Part shown: piece after piece, positions 28,249 through 38,086 of the stretch
Position numbering within the stretch: position 1 is the first letter of the stretch
Layout of the letters: the number at the start of each line of letters is the position of its first letter
DNA from: Clostridiales bacterium
GTDB lineage: Bacteria > Bacillota > Clostridia > Peptostreptococcales > Acidaminobacteraceae
Length of the DNA stretch: 64,000 bases
Reading direction: 5' to 3'
Assembly (NCBI GenBank): GCA_016933835.1
Contig: JAFGAC010000031.1
Span: forward strand, 62,001-126,000
Notes under the pieces: generated by a model
The model's input: the letters and a program-made list of their open reading frames with translations, nothing else
Database searches by the model: none
Told to the model about the DNA's origin: nothing
Made by a program: the position numbers and the translations under genes

Positions 28249-28415
28249 TTAACACCTCTACTTTGATTCATTAAGGATATTCTAACTTATAACTTTAAAT
28301 AATGGAATAATATTATGCCCTGCTTAATTAATTGCGCTACCATCTTCTTACGTCTATTTTGAAGATTAAGTTGTCTAATCCACTCAGAATACGGTTTACA
28401 TATTTTTTAAAAATC

Positions 28416-28444
28416 TTTACAATCAATATGTCCCATGTTATAAT
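28416..28444 (+). promoter_or_regulatory. Promoter of the c-di-GMP riboswitch transcript
   Basis: TTTACA (28416-28421) and perfect TATAAT (28439-28444) with a 17-base spacer, about 30 bases before the aptamer. Confidence 0.8.
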
Positions 28445-28477
28445 TTACGCAAATAGCAGATTTTTTTCTTGTTCTTT

Positions 28478-28580
28478 CCAACGATAAAGGCAAACTTTGT
28501 GAAAACAAAGGACGCAAAACTATAGGACCTTACCTTTAGGGTATGGTAGCCAGTTCTCGAATTAGAGAGATTTTTTGTTG
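28478..28580 (+). ncRNA. Cyclic-di-GMP-I (GEMM) riboswitch
   Basis: The conserved core of the GEMM aptamer is present in order: ACGATAAAGGCAAAC, the P1b hairpin CTTTGT-GAAA-ACAAAG with its GNRA tetraloop, GGACGCAAAACTATAGGACC, then GGTATGGTAGCC containing the TATGG half of a tetraloop receptor. A short hairpin (TTCTC-GAATTA-GAGAG) and six T follow at 28553-28576 as a possible intrinsic terminator. Outer CCAAC (28479-28483) and GTTGG (28576-28581) could also pair. The only downstream plus-strand genes are the M23 peptidase and bactofilin. Confidence 0.92.
28553..28576 (+). terminator. Possible riboswitch expression-platform terminator
   Basis: A five-base-pair hairpin TTCTC/GAGAG with six-base loop is followed by ATTTTTT directly after the aptamer. 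The stem is short. Its 5' arm overlaps bases that would close the aptamer, so ligand binding could disfavour it, but the direction of control cannot be settled by eye. Confidence 0.5.
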
Positions 28581-28778
28581 GTCAAAAAATTTTATGATCA
28601 ATGCCAGAACTCCCTTGTCTTTAGTCATGGGTAATTCAAAAAGTACTTTTTAACTTTGAGGATGTACTTCCTTAACAAATAATATTACATCTCTTTTACA
28701 TATATTACCTTTAATGACTTTTATTTTAGTTTTTTTGTATTTTTCTGATAAATAATCTTTATCAAAATTCATTTTCTA
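28581..28778 (+). other. Non-coding stretch between riboswitch and M23 promoter
   Basis: About 200 bases with no convincing reading frame; the longest start-to-stop run with any shape is 19 codons from 28592. CCCTTG...CATGGG (28613-28632) can form a short mismatched hairpin, and AAAAAGTACTTTTT is a palindrome. This would be leader RNA if the riboswitch transcript reaches the M23 gene. Confidence 0.5.
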
Positions 28779-28833
28779 TTGAAAATTCTATAAGAAAGGT
28801 GTTATATTTAAATAGGTATCAAATAATAACACC
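28779..28833 (+). promoter_or_regulatory. Second promoter of M23-bactofilin operon with inverted repeat
   Basis: TTGAAA (28779-28784) and TTATAT (28802-28807) with a 17-base spacer lie just before the M23 gene. A perfect 8-bp inverted repeat, GGTGTTAT (28798-28805) and ATAACACC (28826-28833), flanks the -10 box and expected start point. It could be a repressor operator or an mRNA hairpin next to the ribosome binding site. Confidence 0.55.
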
Positions 28834-28844
28834 GGAGATTAAAA

Positions 28845-29852
28845 ATGATTTTTTTCAAAAAACTCAAGCAATTAAAATCTTATAAATTTACAATCATGAT
28901 TATTCCTGATGCCAATAAAAAAGTCATTCAACTCAATTTGAGCAAACTTTTTTTATACACTATGTTAGGGATAACCGTTATCATAAGCTCCTATTTTGTA
29001 ACGAAAAATATTTATTTGGAATCTTTGAATGACTATTACGTTTCATACAGCAATGGTTTGAATGATGAAATAGCAGTCAGAGATGATAAAATTGAAAAAT
29101 TGTATGCTTTAAGAGCTGAACGCGAAAATGAAATGGCATATCTAAAAGATTCTCTCAATACATCTGCCCTATATTTTGAAGAAAAATTAGGCGAACTTCA
29201 TGATCTTGAAGGAGAAGTCAATTCCCTCCTTGTAATGATCAACGATCGCGGTGATACGGCACTGAGTATTCCAATAAGCCGATCTATCGATCAATCAACA
29301 TTGCTTGCCATAAATGAAGAAAAAATCAATGAACCTACTGCTATAGATGAAGTGAAAAATCTTGTCGATGAAGATGAAATATCACTCATGATTAAAAATC
29401 AAATTGATCAGTACAAGAATTTAATTGATGATGTTTCTTCTCAACTGAGTTTTCTGGAATGCTATCCAGATTATTCCCCTGTTAATGGTTATATAACTTC
29501 AAATTTTGGATACAGAAGAGATCCTTTTACTGGTCTTACTGATTATCATAAGGGTGTGGATATTGCTGCACCAAAGGGATCAAAAATTTATGCGGCAGCA
29601 TCAGGTGTTGTAACTTATGTCGGTTATAATGGAAATTATGGCAATATGATTGTTATTTCTCATGGATATGATTATGAGACAGTCTATGCACATAACAGTG
29701 AAAATTTAGTAGCTGTGGGTGATCAAGTAACAAAAGGTGATTTGATTGGATATGTAGGTTCTACCGGAAGAAGTACTGGTCCGCATGTTCATTTTGAAGT
29801 TCATTTTGAAGGTACTCAAATCAATCCAAGAAAAACATTAAATGACTATTAG
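28845..29852 (+). CDS. Membrane-anchored M23 (LytM-type) metallopeptidase
   Basis: A 335-residue cell-wall peptidase. Cytoplasmic N-terminus, one membrane segment (~35-53), a coiled-coil region (~72-130), a linker, and a C-terminal M23 domain (~215-330). The zinc and catalytic residues are present: His235 and Asp239 (YHKGVDIA), His283 (YAH), His314 and His316 (GPHVHFE). It would cut peptidoglycan cross-bridges outside the membrane. GGAG is seven bases before the ATG. A bactofilin gene follows 11 bases later, a pairing known in bacteria that shape their wall. A c-di-GMP riboswitch lies upstream. Confidence 0.93.
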   Translation: MIFFKKLKQLKSYKFTIMIIPDANKKVIQLNLSKLFLYTMLGITVIISSYFVTKNIYLESLNDYYVSYSNGLNDEIAVRDDKIEKLYALRAERENEMAYLKDSLNTSALYFEEKLGELHDLEGEVNSLLVMINDRGDTALSIPISRSIDQSTLLAINEEKINEPTAIDEVKNLVDEDEISLMIKNQIDQYKNLIDDVSSQLSFLECYPDYSPVNGYITSNFGYRRDPFTGLTDYHKGVDIAAPKGSKIYAAASGVVTYVGYNGNYGNMIVISHGYDYETVYAHNSENLVAVGDQVTKGDLIGYVGSTGRSTGPHVHFEVHFEGTQINPRKTLNDY

Positions 29853-29863
29853 GAGGTTTAAAA

Positions 29864-30253
29864 TTGTTTAAAAATGAACCAGTCAATAAAAAAATAAGCA
29901 GCGAAACTTATGACGTAATAGTAGGTAAAAGTTCGAAATTAGATGGTAATATAAGCAGTGAAGGTTCAATCCGAATTGAAGGGATTGTTACTGGAAATGT
30001 TGAAGCACAGGGAAACTTGATTGTTGGTCCAGATGCCAAATTGAATGGCGATATAAGATGTAAAAACATTGAAATTTCTGGAGAAGTAAAAGGCAATGTT
30101 GTTTGCACAGGTCATCTTAAAGTTTATGCACAGGGAATTTTATATGGAGATATAGAAGTAACTTCTTTCAATATTGAAGAAGGCGGCTTATTCGATGGAA
30201 ATTGTAAAATAGAAACAATCAATAAAACTAAAATTGAACTGCCTAAGAAATAG
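29864..30253 (+). CDS. Bactofilin family cytoskeletal protein
   Basis: A 129-residue protein with a right-handed beta-helix pattern of short glycine-rich repeats (SKLDGNISSEGSIRIEGIVTG..., DAKLNGDIRCKNIEISGEVKG). Bactofilins polymerise without nucleotide at the membrane and position wall enzymes. The start is TTG at 29864, with AGGAGG seven bases upstream that overlaps the M23 stop. The protein probably scaffolds the M23 peptidase encoded just before it. A terminator follows. Confidence 0.92.
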   Translation: MFKNEPVNKKISSETYDVIVGKSSKLDGNISSEGSIRIEGIVTGNVEAQGNLIVGPDAKLNGDIRCKNIEISGEVKGNVVCTGHLKVYAQGILYGDIEVTSFNIEEGGLFDGNCKIETINKTKIELPKK

Positions 30254-30276
30254 AGAGATTTGATTCTCTCTTTTTT
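30253..30276 (+). terminator. Terminator of M23-bactofilin operon
   Basis: GAGAGA-TTTGAT-TCTCTC followed by a run of six T, starting at the bactofilin stop codon. Confidence 0.85.
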
Positions 30277-30370: not shown

Positions 30371-31081
30371 ATGAAAAGAATTTTAGGTAATTTAAGAAAA
30401 ACAATTCAAGAAAACAATCTTATCAATGACAAGGATAGAGTAGCTGTAGGTGTTTCAGGAGGCAAAGATTCGATGTTGCTTCTTTACTCACTAAAAAAAT
30501 TGCAAAATTTCATCCCTATCGATTTTGAATTAGAAGCTTTTTTTGTTGATCTTGGCTTCTCTGATTTCCCAATAAATATTATCGAAGATTTTTGCACTTC
30601 TTTAGATGTGCCATTGAATATTGTAAAAACAACTATTTCTGAAGTTATCTTTGATATACGAAAAGAATCCAGTCCCTGTTCACTTTGTGCAAATATGAGA
30701 AAAGGCGCTCTGCATGATGCCGTCATAAAAAAAGGATTCAACAAGTTGGCACTTGGTCATCATCAAGATGACGCTGTTGAAACATTGTTCATGAATATGA
30801 TTTACACTGGTCGGATCAATACATTCATGATGGATACTTATTTATCTAGAGCAGACATTCATGTCATCCGCCCATTTATAACAACGGCAGAAAAAGATAT
30901 CATTCACTCGACAAAGGCGAATGACATTCCAATTGCCAAAAATCCTTGTCCAATGGACAAAAATACAAAAAGAGAAGAAATAAAATTTCTCCTCAATGAT
31001 TTCTACCACAACTTCCCTGAATCTCGAAAAAACTTTGTTACTGCAATCAACAATCCAAATCATGTACAATTAATCAAGTAG
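30371..31081 (+). CDS. TtcA-like PP-loop tRNA-thiolation protein
   Basis: A 236-residue ATP-pyrophosphatase of the TtcA/TtuA group. The PP-loop is VSGGKDSMLLL (~29-38). CSLCANMRKGAL holds a CxxC for a possible Fe-S cluster, and GHHQDDAVET is the second ATP-site motif. NPCPMDKNTKRE near the C-terminus supplies a third cysteine typical of TtcA. Such enzymes add sulfur to tRNA bases (for example 2-thiocytidine), but the exact base here is not determined. It stands alone between the bactofilin operon and the convergent flavodoxin-like gene. Confidence 0.88.
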   Translation: MKRILGNLRKTIQENNLINDKDRVAVGVSGGKDSMLLLYSLKKLQNFIPIDFELEAFFVDLGFSDFPINIIEDFCTSLDVPLNIVKTTISEVIFDIRKESSPCSLCANMRKGALHDAVIKKGFNKLALGHHQDDAVETLFMNMIYTGRINTFMMDTYLSRADIHVIRPFITTAEKDIIHSTKANDIPIAKNPCPMDKNTKREEIKFLLNDFYHNFPESRKNFVTAINNPNHVQLIK

Positions 31082-33199: not shown

Positions 33200-36100
33200 T
33201 CAGTCCTTTGAACAAATGTCTTTTAATCTTTCAAGGTGTTCTAAATCGTACTGCAGATAGTCACTTGCTTTCACGGATAAGTCCAATTTTTGCATTTCTC
33301 CTCTGTCAGGATATCTAGGATACACCATTACTTCAGGTAATGAACCCATGGTCAAACTTTTTTCATGAAGTTTTTGATATTCGTCCTCCAATGTCTTCAA
33401 TATATTCAACGCATTTGTAATTGCCACCCTAGACATATCATATATGGATTGCTTTGACGCACCTTTAATATATCCTGCAGAAGCATATGGCAATATAAGA
33501 TTGATTGATGGAATAATATTTCTTTCAGGATTTTGACCTCTCCACAAAGTATCTCCTCCTAAAAAAGGATAGAGTTTACTTTCATTAAACCATACTTTTA
33601 ATCGTGGTATGAAGTAAGCTGAATCGACTTCACGATTCTGCATTTCCATCAAAGACTTTCCTCTTCCTGACATAAGTCCTACAAATACTTTTTTGATTTC
33701 AATGTTTTCTGCCTTCAAAAGCGGATCCACAGCTTTAATCCTATAACCTTTGTTGAGCAAATCATCTACTAAAAATATTGGTCTATTGAATGATTTCAGC
33801 ATTTTTACCTGATTAAGCAAATCCAAGTAATATGGATATGCTTCTATTTCATAATCTTCAGCAGATGGCAACATGAATTTTTCAGTATGTAAAGACTTGG
33901 TTACTGTATTCGGCAAGATTCTTTTCTTGAAAATCTCTCCAAAAGGTACACACATAGCTTCTCCCAGTTGCCTTGGTTGCAGAGGTTCTGTCGGCATACC
34001 ATTTTCTTCCACAATTTTTTTAATCAAATGTTCATAAATCATATTTCTATCAAACGACAAAACTAAATTTCCAGGATAAAGCTTAGTAAGCGACATTAAA
34101 AGTTTTTCTCTTGTTCGATCAATGCTTTTCAATACATTTTCGTTATCTGAAAAAGGCTCTTTGATCATCGATCTTATATCCAGACTCAATGTGCAAGGTG
34201 CACTCATATTCACATGATATATACAGCTGTCTTTACTAGAGCACAGCTTTACAAAACCTTGAAGAATAAGTACTTTTTCAACATTCTTATGTGGCCTGCT
34301 TATAATGAAGTCTCGATAAATTGCGTACGTATAGTCACGCGCTAAATTATATGCCAAAGTTTCAGTAACAAGCAACTGTTCAACATTTCTCATCAGACAT
34401 TGATCATTGGCATAAATGCCATCAATCATCAAAATTCTTCCAACTGAATTGTTTCGAATAGCTTCTTCATACAATGGATCTTTGAATTCATTGTAAATTT
34501 TACTTGATCGGAGCCAATGAAATACAGCAAATCCTATTATCTCATTCTCATCCAATCTTTTTTTGACCACCAAGACTCTTGCTTTGTTAAGTTTTATATA
34601 CTCACTGATTCTTTCAAATTCATTCAGCTTGTATTTAGGCAAAACATCCAATAGTTCTCTTAGATCATCGTCTGCAATATTATCAAGTATTTCAACATCA
34701 ATTGATTTTGTTGTCATAATTTCTTTGAATTGAGGTTCTCTTAAATACAATCCTTTTTTATAAATGAATTTTTGTGCCAAGGGATCAATAAGTTCTGAAA
34801 TATCCCTATTTTCATCAATATAGGTTCTTATCTGAGTAGAACTTATAATTTGCAACTTATCAGGTAGGGTTAGATATTCTACCGATATACCGTATTCTTT
34901 GACACGTTCTTCTAATATTTTAAATTGAACACCAAGATCATTGCTTTCATCCCGCGTGAAAATAACATGATTCAAAGAATGAATGCTGTGCTCTTTTTTT
35001 TCTTTTCTATAGGCAGATGCGTTCATGACAACATCGCTGCCTGCAACAAGATTAACAGTTACATTTCCAAAGTAATCCTTTAGATTTTTAATATCCTCTT
35101 CATTGGCGATATTCACTTGCAAATCTCTAGGAAAAACAAACATGCCAAATTCATCGGCGACAGACATTTTAATAATAGCTCTCCGAATTAAATTAGGTTG
35201 TGTTCTCTTAGACCAAGAGAACTCATCAACTGCTAAATAGACTTCATAGCCAAGATCTCTAATTCTTTTTGCAATTTCCTTATGGCTGAGACTGAATGGA
35301 TCAAAGGCCCCTGGGAAATAGGCTATTCGATTATTTATTTCAATTTTCAAATCTCCGTAATAAAACAGATAATCTGATAAAAACCTATAAATATGCTTTA
35401 TGCCAGCTGCATTGTTAAGGAAATTCAGTTCAAGATTCTCATCATTGTTTACAAGCAGTGATAAAAATTTCTTTCCAATTATCTTGAATACAAACGCTTT
35501 TTCCTTCAAAGACAATATTTTTGAACCAAAAATATCTTTTCCCAGAACGCTGATGGCCATCTGATTCACTTGGGGCTCATAACTGACATATCCATTCATA
35601 ATGATGCTAAGTAAATCTTTCAGTCTTACCATGAGTTCATCGTTTGATTCGTTGAATGCATATCTATACTTAGGATAATTGATGATAAAAACTCCCACTG
35701 TCTTCAGTATCAATGTACTCACTTGTCGATTGGATTTTTTGATTTTAATTTTAAAATCTTTAATGATTTCATTAAGTTCTTTTGGTGCAATATGCACCAG
35801 CATGATACCTAAATATTCTGGTATATATTTTGTGTATTGAAAATTTTCAAGTTCAAGCGCTCTTAGAAGCTCAACAACTATCTCTGTTTTTTCCTCAAAG
35901 GAAAGATGACTTGTCAGATAAGTAAGCCCTTCACCAATAGCCGTTCTCACTTCTTCATTGTTGACAATTTTCAACATGTTGCTGAAGTGCATTGCCGTAT
36001 AAAAACCTTTTGTCTCTTTATTGTAAATACCGTACTTCAAGAGAATTTCCACCTGAAGCTTTTTAGAAATCATTTTTGTTCCTACTTTTAAATTACTGAG

Positions 36101-38086
36101 AAACAAGTCTGAAGAACTCTCCAAATCACTGAAAATAAATTCGTTTTTTTGCTCAATAAGTTCATTGTTTGGATCAATCATCTCTAGATTTTTTACAATT
36201 GCATACGCTTCTGTTCTGTCAAGTTCCTCTAATTTGTCATAGTAGGAAGAAATGTCTATTTCTTTTTTTACTGATTCTTCAATATAAGGTAAAAGCGTGC
36301 TCAAAGTATCCCATGCAATCAATCTCACTTCATCATCAGAATTAACAGTAATCTGCAAAACTCTGTCGATGATGTATTTTGTCTGATCAGTCGTCATCAT
36401 ATATATTGGGAGCACTTTAGCTATATCAAGAAAACATTTCATATGATGCCCTTTATGACAATGGGGATCAATTGTATCAAGAACCTTTTGAAGTTTTTCA
36501 AGTTTGGCTTCTTCTTCGATGTTGTTGAAATATGACTTAAGCATTGATTTAAGATTTCTTGAGATAACAACACGATGTTTTTCTATTATTTTTTGCTCGG
36601 GATCCAAAAATCCATTGATATATTTGTACAACAGATCATCTGAACTGACTTCAAGTGATGATACCCTCGCTCTTGGCGGCAATTCTTTCCTGATTTTTTC
36701 ATCAAAAGTTGCAATAATTTCTCCGATAAGCTGAGCTGATTCAATTCTAATGTCCTCTTCAGGTGTTATGAGTCTTTCATATAAGAATTTTATAACCATC
36801 AATTTTTGTTTCTGAGTCAAGTAAGTGTAGTATTCTTGTACAATATTGATATATCCTCTTAAGCTGTTAATATTATCAATCCCGCGTGCATTCTCCAACA
36901 TTTTGTTCAAGGAATTTTCCGTTTTAATCATATTCATCAATTGAATGTTATGGCTGATTGACATGAATTTAGTGCCTTCAACAATTTCCTGCCCTTGTAC
37001 AAGTGAATAATATCTTCTATTTGCTACTACAATCTCATCTTTTTCAATATCGAAATCAGGACTTAAGTTAATCTCATATTCTCTTAGATATTCTTCAAAA
37101 TCCTTCAATTTTGCATATACTCTTAGATATCTATTTTTCTTTACTTCATCTACATTATCAAGCTTCTTCAAAATGACCTCGAAAGAATCTTCCAAAGAAT
37201 AAAATTTCATTTCTCCATTCAAACCCTGTTTAACTCTGAAATCACAATAAATCAGTAAAAGGGATTCTATTGTCAGGTTTTCAAGTTCCAAATCCCAAGT
37301 TGAATGATTTATGGCGATATTTCTTATGTATACAATTTCTCTTTTTCGAAACCATTCTCCTGAATAATAATAATGATAATAAGCGACCTTGTGCGCTTCA
37401 TCAGGCAATGTTCCAAATTTTCCTATGTCATGGCCTGCAGCGGCACCAGAAACTAATCCCAAGTCAATTTCTAGGTCTTTTAAGTACAATTGTCTGGAGA
37501 TACTCATCGCTATGTGATGGACACCACAGATATGATCCAAGGTATTATATCCTATTACATCTTGATTCAATTTCATCATTTCATACAAATAATCATCATT
37601 GAATGCTGCCGTAAATTTTTTATATTCATCAGATGAATCAAACTTTTTATACTCATTTTTATCCATCAGCCTTAGGGCATATGTGCTTTGCCAATTCCCA
37701 CAATCACACTCTTTTTCGAATTTGAATATGACATGAAAAAGCTTTAACGATAAATCCATTACCCCTCTGTTTTCTTCAGTAGTAAACACTTGAGCGGCTT
37801 CAGGAAAAGACTTTTCCAATGAATAATTGTAAATATATTCAAGTATGTTTGATTCATTGATGTTTGAATCTTTATTTAAAGTCAATATTAGATTTTTAAA
37901 AGCAGCAAACACCTTATATGAATTAAAATCCTTTTCAGATACACAAGTATTTATATGCGTATAGAACTCATTTCCGAAAATAAAATTTTCAATTATATCG
38001 TAATTTAAACCATAATCATCTAAAAATTTTTGATTCAACACTTCGATTTTTATCTGTTCAAATATTTTATTAGAAATTCGATACAT
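33200..38086 (-). CDS. Giant HD / helical-repeat / NadD-like / GNAT-like / PRTase-like fusion protein
   Basis: A 1628-residue soluble protein with at least five parts. (1) An HD hydrolase at ~180-290, with His185, the His219-Asp220 pair in AAAGHDIGKFG, and His261. (2) A long helical, HEAT-like region at ~400-910. (3) A nucleotidyltransferase at ~920-1115 with YFPGAFDPFSLSHKEI (Gly926, Asp929, His935) and ISSTQIR (1081-1087), the two signatures of NadD/cytidylyltransferases. (4) A GNAT-like region at ~1130-1285. (5) A phosphoribosyltransferase-like domain at ~1340-1560 whose PRPP-type loop reads FLVDDLLNKGYR (1438-1449), with Lys where Thr is usual. The reactions are unknown. GGGGGG precedes the ATG. 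It heads an operon with dehydrogenase-like and flavodoxin-like genes. Confidence 0.75.
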   Translation of the reverse strand: MYRISNKIFEQIKIEVLNQKFLDDYGLNYDIIENFIFGNEFYTHINTCVSEKDFNSYKVFAAFKNLILTLNKDSNINESNILEYIYNYSLEKSFPEAAQVFTTEENRGVMDLSLKLFHVIFKFEKECDCGNWQSTYALRLMDKNEYKKFDSSDEYKKFTAAFNDDYLYEMMKLNQDVIGYNTLDHICGVHHIAMSISRQLYLKDLEIDLGLVSGAAAGHDIGKFGTLPDEAHKVAYYHYYYSGEWFRKREIVYIRNIAINHSTWDLELENLTIESLLLIYCDFRVKQGLNGEMKFYSLEDSFEVILKKLDNVDEVKKNRYLRVYAKLKDFEEYLREYEINLSPDFDIEKDEIVVANRRYYSLVQGQEIVEGTKFMSISHNIQLMNMIKTENSLNKMLENARGIDNINSLRGYINIVQEYYTYLTQKQKLMVIKFLYERLITPEEDIRIESAQLIGEIIATFDEKIRKELPPRARVSSLEVSSDDLLYKYINGFLDPEQKIIEKHRVVISRNLKSMLKSYFNNIEEEAKLEKLQKVLDTIDPHCHKGHHMKCFLDIAKVLPIYMMTTDQTKYIIDRVLQITVNSDDEVRLIAWDTLSTLLPYIEESVKKEIDISSYYDKLEELDRTEAYAIVKNLEMIDPNNELIEQKNEFIFSDLESSSDLFLSNLKVGTKMISKKLQVEILLKYGIYNKETKGFYTAMHFSNMLKIVNNEEVRTAIGEGLTYLTSHLSFEEKTEIVVELLRALELENFQYTKYIPEYLGIMLVHIAPKELNEIIKDFKIKIKKSNRQVSTLILKTVGVFIINYPKYRYAFNESNDELMVRLKDLLSIIMNGYVSYEPQVNQMAISVLGKDIFGSKILSLKEKAFVFKIIGKKFLSLLVNNDENLELNFLNNAAGIKHIYRFLSDYLFYYGDLKIEINNRIAYFPGAFDPFSLSHKEIAKRIRDLGYEVYLAVDEFSWSKRTQPNLIRRAIIKMSVADEFGMFVFPRDLQVNIANEEDIKNLKDYFGNVTVNLVAGSDVVMNASAYRKEKKEHSIHSLNHVIFTRDESNDLGVQFKILEERVKEYGISVEYLTLPDKLQIISSTQIRTYIDENRDISELIDPLAQKFIYKKGLYLREPQFKEIMTTKSIDVEILDNIADDDLRELLDVLPKYKLNEFERISEYIKLNKARVLVVKKRLDENEIIGFAVFHWLRSSKIYNEFKDPLYEEAIRNNSVGRILMIDGIYANDQCLMRNVEQLLVTETLAYNLARDYTYAIYRDFIISRPHKNVEKVLILQGFVKLCSSKDSCIYHVNMSAPCTLSLDIRSMIKEPFSDNENVLKSIDRTREKLLMSLTKLYPGNLVLSFDRNMIYEHLIKKIVEENGMPTEPLQPRQLGEAMCVPFGEIFKKRILPNTVTKSLHTEKFMLPSAEDYEIEAYPYYLDLLNQVKMLKSFNRPIFLVDDLLNKGYRIKAVDPLLKAENIEIKKVFVGLMSGRGKSLMEMQNREVDSAYFIPRLKVWFNESKLYPFLGGDTLWRGQNPERNIIPSINLILPYASAGYIKGASKQSIYDMSRVAITNALNILKTLEDEYQKLHEKSLTMGSLPEVMVYPRYPDRGEMQKLDLSVKASDYLQYDLEHLERLKDICSKD

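Follow-up and report, generated by a model that had tools for sequence, protein, structure and literature searches.

The c-di-GMP-I riboswitch located upstream of an M23 peptidase-bactofilin operon in a 64,000-nucleotide stretch of Clostridiales DNA (hereafter, the window) is tentatively explained as a displaced copy of a leader that has kept an intact aptamer, with the operon being transcribed mainly from a promoter of its own. We favour this account, although it falls just short of probable. Under it, c-di-GMP would provide at most a lineage-specific, auxiliary input. The features concerned are listed in Table 1.

Table 1. Leader, operon and neighbouring features in the window.
Feature	Position	Strand	Evidence or remark
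Riboswitch leader promoter region	28395-28444	+	Start of DNA match to G000:C66:34043-34246, and alignment
c-di-GMP-I (GEMM-I) aptamer	28479-28561	+	RF01051; pairs kept with two-sided changes relative to sister units
Weak hairpin UUCUC-GAAUUA-GAGAG followed by a T run; sole candidate attenuator	28554-28577	+	-4.7 kcal/mol
Linker homologous to the linker after C66 unit 1	28562-28590	+	DNA match and alignment
49-bp repeat, similar to an IS200/IS605 right end	28591-28639	+	12 copies genome-wide, this one included
AT-rich stretch; no relative recognised	28640-28745		Only weak DNA matches, confined to the AT-rich portion
Proximal promoter of the M23-bactofilin operon, TTGAAA-N18-TATATT	28779-28808	+	Common to relatives
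M23 metallopeptidase, 335 aa	28845-29852	+	PF01551, 1.2e-36
Bactofilin, 129 aa, TTG start	29864-30253	+	PF04519, 3.1e-27
Terminator-like hairpin past bactofilin	30252-30271	+	Terminator scan
PP-loop ATPase	30371-31081	+	PF01171

The aptamer was identified in an Rfam scan with model RF01051 at 71.1 bits (E 6.2e-12; gathering score 35 bits), and the match covers model positions 1-87 of 87, bearing out the full-length aptamer of the original prediction. The near-consensus promoter claimed for it is also present, as TTTACA-N17-TATAAT at 28416-28444 with a TG preceding the second hexamer. Promoter-like sites as a class are not more frequent than in shuffled sequence (10 found versus 11.7 expected); this particular hexamer pair falls, in alignment with a homologous leader, on that leader's promoter region. 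All 17 drawn pairs of the aptamer helices are standard in each of the five units of the same subtype and six of them have changed on both sides, showing structural constraint on the subtype. The covariation score across these units is 0.376, compared with 0.132 for shuffles and at most 0.053 for slid controls. Such conservation across the subtype is no evidence of constraint on the window copy after its presumed move. Judged by its match in sequence and structure, the window RNA is a genuine c-di-GMP-I aptamer that would be expected to sense c-di-GMP. It is one of 10 c-di-GMP-I matches in the genome. Contigs C123 and C139 carry an identical aptamer sequence at their ends (L044 5-78 and L045 1-65), so that one leader was probably split by assembly and the genome may hold nine aptamers rather than ten.

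The aptamer ends 283 nt before the start codon of the M23 gene, which is followed on the same strand, after 11 bases, by the bactofilin gene. The predicted arrangement of riboswitch, peptidase and bactofilin is thus correct. The further statement that these two are the only downstream genes on that strand is not: past the hairpin behind bactofilin lies the gene for a PP-loop ATPase, which we take to be TtcA-like. A divergent radical-SAM gene borders the other side of the gap upstream of M23. No plus-strand gene was found among the ORFs between aptamer and M23. A minus-strand ORF of 40 codons (28650-28772) was rejected as a gene, having no relative below E 0.08 besides itself in 41 genomes; another minus-strand stretch, 28281-28409, holds a short frame with stops. 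Elsewhere in the window, the minus strand encodes a 1628-aa protein (33200-38086) in which Pfam recognises only a cytidylyltransferase-like domain.

The leader has a close homologue in the same genome. Positions 28395-28590 are 80% identical to a segment of contig C66 containing the first of two tandem aptamers (the tandem leader spans 34133-34373), flanked by genes for a sortase and a transglutaminase-like protein. Genome G002 has three aptamers in a corresponding layout and G016 has two before a similar gene. In the last tandem unit the start codon, preceded by GGGAGA, follows the aptamer by 14 nt. Missing from the window copy are the second unit, the GGGAGA ribosome-binding site and the transglutaminase gene; the second hexamer of its promoter is closer to consensus than that of the C66 copy. 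The surroundings of the C66 leader (L041, 22000-41000) comprise five c-di-GMP-I aptamers, two SdrD_B-repeat surface proteins, the sortase, the transglutaminase-like protein and two PAS-GGDEF proteins, placing c-di-GMP synthesis and sensing side by side. On contig C26 of G002 (L091), three tandem c-di-GMP-I aptamers precede a transglutaminase-like gene, which is itself followed by a TnpB-like gene.

Directly behind the linker lies a repeat of which 12 matches of 41-49 bp were found: the window copy and, elsewhere in the genome, copies on C48, C141, C96 (two), C183, C22, C181 (two), C66, C23 and C85. It contains a TGAC-TTTA-GTC hairpin, often with a TAATTCAA end, and in the window hairpin and end read CCCTTGTC-TTTA-GTCATGGG-TAATTCAA. 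The corresponding sequence at L113, behind a TnpB-like fragment, and at L117, at its start, is CTCGTGAC-TTCA-GTCATGAG-TAATTCAA. The window repeat has a subterminal hairpin and a TTCAA-type end like those behind the TnpB elements of this genome, and we take subterminal hairpins of this type to mark IS605 ends. Neither TnpA nor TnpB is present among the ORFs beside 28591-28639, so that the element could at most be a remnant or a non-autonomous copy; no transposase was seen beside the inspected copies either, and the genome's TnpB matches are short or broken. We read 28591-28639 as a putative IS200/IS605 right end of this kind, partly on the strength of general features of the family. None of the other inspected copies has a riboswitch at the corresponding place. 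A further c-di-GMP-I aptamer is located some 230 bases away from the copy at C181:2555-2595.

To place the riboswitch in an evolutionary context, the M23 locus was compared among 41 genomes, in which the window's genome is the sole member of its genus. Full or partial M23 matches occur in 40 of the 41, many of them to the shared peptidase domain only. Bactofilin lies beside M23 in 26 of the 30 best loci including the window's own, that is in 25 of 29 relatives, and the PP-loop gene adjoins the pair in L012, L013 and L014. The aptamer is present at the window's locus and at none of the 38 relative loci subjected to Rfam scans (batches of 9, 20 and 9; flanks up to about 1.5 kb, with 24 bases upstream for L039, and with L031 and L040 derived from partial matches). 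Conservation of the riboswitch before M23-bactofilin was accordingly rejected for these 38 loci. An M23 search of the genome contigs gave four loci only, two of them, by match position, on the same contigs as L012 and L013, and hence added little. Conversely, 65 loci retrieved because of a riboswitch hit or a DNA match contained M23 or bactofilin in just two cases, L007 and L077, both of which are the window's own locus.

In the alignment with L012 and L013, the leader is confined to the window: the gap between radical-SAM and M23 genes is short in these relatives, and similarity to the window resumes near 28746. The resumed part includes the proximal promoter. TTGAAA-N18-TATATT/TATAGT is found 105-113 bases 5' of the same protein motif in all five closest loci (the window, L012, L013, L014 and L122). 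Since in the window this shared promoter sits downstream of the riboswitch, M23 can be transcribed without it. On the other hand, the riboswitch promoter is nearer to consensus (11 of 12 positions versus 10 of 12 for the M23 promoter) and might dominate.

The terminator near 28576 implied by the original prediction corresponds to a candidate hairpin with a T run, which is weak, comprising five pairs at -4.7 kcal/mol, and which the terminator scan did not list; in five other leaders of the genome the hairpins reach -8.8, -9.9, -11.9, -12.0 and -16.4 kcal/mol. The idea of a strong terminator in the first tandem unit was rejected, the hairpin of C66 unit 1 having only -2.8 kcal/mol. There is no ribosome-binding site right behind the window aptamer, and the interval from aptamer to M23 revealed no strong terminator. 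As no plus-strand gene intervenes either, read-through is physically possible.

Folding of the free window leader predicts that the GAGAGA arm pairs locally (maximum probability 0.77), whereas with the aptamer enforced it pairs with the 5' leader (0.82, against 0.21 local). Of the free sister units folded, C66 unit 1 (0.54 with the 5' leader versus 0.32 local) and G002 unit 2 (0.67 versus 0.31) favour pairing with the 5' leader and G002 unit 1 shows the reverse (0.04 versus 0.91), leaving the direction of the switch uncertain. ON-type attenuation may therefore operate in the window leader. Pairing of GAGAGA with the 5' leader, beside the T run, could equally terminate transcription, and the local hairpin may be too weak for any termination. 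By eye, an upstream hairpin GUUGG/CCAAC (or CGUUGG/CCGACG) is kept in six of the seven other units of the subtype and lost in the window, a loss more in keeping with a copy in decay than with a functional one.

In the account that we favour, promoter, one aptamer and linker, together the first unit of a tandem leader of c-di-GMP-I type, would have been copied from elsewhere in the genome. As we infer, this copy was inserted where the radical-SAM gene and M23-bactofilin are separated by a short gap, either along with the IS200/IS605-like repeat or next to it. The operon would have retained the promoter at 28779-28808 and would most likely be expressed mainly from there, transcription added from the riboswitch being presumably minor. 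Transcripts from the riboswitch promoter could continue into M23, because only a weak hairpin intervenes. Binding of c-di-GMP would hold the AGUU of the aptamer 3' end in helix P3 and disfavour the attenuator hairpin, so that read-through would increase modestly, acting as an ON-type auxiliary input. Since the leader looks like a copied-in piece of an adhesin-operon leader, present before M23-bactofilin in this genome only, and the operon has retained a promoter of its own, c-di-GMP may, but need not, be linked to cell shape. In a broader and rather doubtful reading, a riboswitch regulon would be growing by leader transfer: a promoter-aptamer module copied from an adhesin locus, apparently helped by insertion-sequence-like DNA, would add c-di-GMP input to a putative cell-shape operon.

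The main rival holds that the copied leader, having lost its output part, does nothing for M23-bactofilin, its transcript either ending intergenically or running on regardless of c-di-GMP. The missing second unit and ribosome-binding site, the lost upstream hairpin, the weak terminator and the occurrence of the leader before M23 in one genome only all fit such an inert remnant, and gene-less class I riboswitches of Clostridioides difficile (PMC6200980) and Bc1 (PMC11218506) offer precedents. An intact aptamer core with all its drawn pairs is less expected of it, as is an intact promoter whose second hexamer departs less from consensus than that of the C66 copy; we consider this rival somewhat unlikely. 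The view originally put forward, that c-di-GMP sets M23-bactofilin expression and thereby couples wall remodelling to whether the cell is motile or sessile, draws on the same aptamer, which is intact, on a strong promoter that points the right way, on the absence of a plus-strand gene or strong terminator before M23, on the structural switch suggested by folding, and on the evident use of c-di-GMP by the genome, which encodes two GGDEF proteins next to the C66 cluster and has 10 c-di-GMP-I matches. The position is right and read-through physically possible, as noted above. Evolved c-di-GMP control of wall remodelling finds no support: the aptamer is absent from the 38 relative loci, the operon has a shared promoter downstream of the aptamer, the 65 riboswitch and DNA-match loci yield M23 or bactofilin at the own locus only, and the leader, which by descent belongs to a transglutaminase gene, lacks its output part and adjoins an insertion-sequence-like repeat. 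Riboswitch control of M23-bactofilin is thus weakly supported, and a dedicated switch appears improbable.

Much less probable still is a separate small RNA, in which the riboswitch transcript would, for example, carry the insertion-sequence-like hairpin at 28591-28639. This hairpin presumably looks like the 3' terminus of a TnpB guide RNA. The repeat follows the leader immediately, in the same orientation, and is similar to the end behind the genome's TnpB-like fragment. However, no TnpB gene adjoins it, TnpB matches in this genome are not intact, and the other inspected copies of the repeat have no riboswitch at that place.

If read-through proves c-di-GMP dependent, an RNA switch would connect c-di-GMP with a peptidase that cuts the wall and with the bactofilin that serves as its scaffold, and the locus would be an example of a riboswitch relocated to a new operon. 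If it does not, the locus is a useful caution against inferring regulation from an intact aptamer that lies upstream of an operon.

In the literature searched, neither a direct precedent for a c-di-GMP-I leader before M23-bactofilin nor a paper combining a c-di-GMP-I riboswitch with a peptidoglycan hydrolase was found; c-di-GMP, riboswitch and bactofilin co-occur there, as far as the available text goes, only in work on the Myxococcus protein CdbA. The pairing of M23 peptidase and bactofilin is itself well described. LmdC-BacA of Hyphomonas neptunium is such a pair with adjacent genes, and pairs of this kind occur in 226 species (PMC10945521). The window shares this arrangement and differs in its c-di-GMP-I leader, none being mentioned for LmdC-BacA in the available part of that report (PMC10945521).

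Compared with RF01051 riboswitches in general, the window has the full-length aptamer, a promoter upstream and a same-strand gene downstream, but it lacks a strong terminator or ribosome-binding site right behind the aptamer, has a long distance to the start codon and consists of a single unit of an otherwise tandem leader. It shares promoter, first aptamer and linker with the C66 sortase-transglutaminase leader and differs in having no second aptamer, ribosome-binding site or transglutaminase gene.

Bc1, a class I aptamer of Bacillus thuringiensis, is described as binding c-di-GMP with expression unchanged (PMC11218506). In C. difficile, where working class I switches are, according to the available text, mostly OFF, five class I riboswitches (Cdi-1-4, -5, -6, -7 and -10) have no downstream gene, two of them being recent duplications, and were judged nonfunctional or acting other than in cis (PMC6200980). 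These are class I aptamers, two of them duplicated, without a gene that they would control; the window differs from them in having a complete operon downstream, into which read-through is possible.
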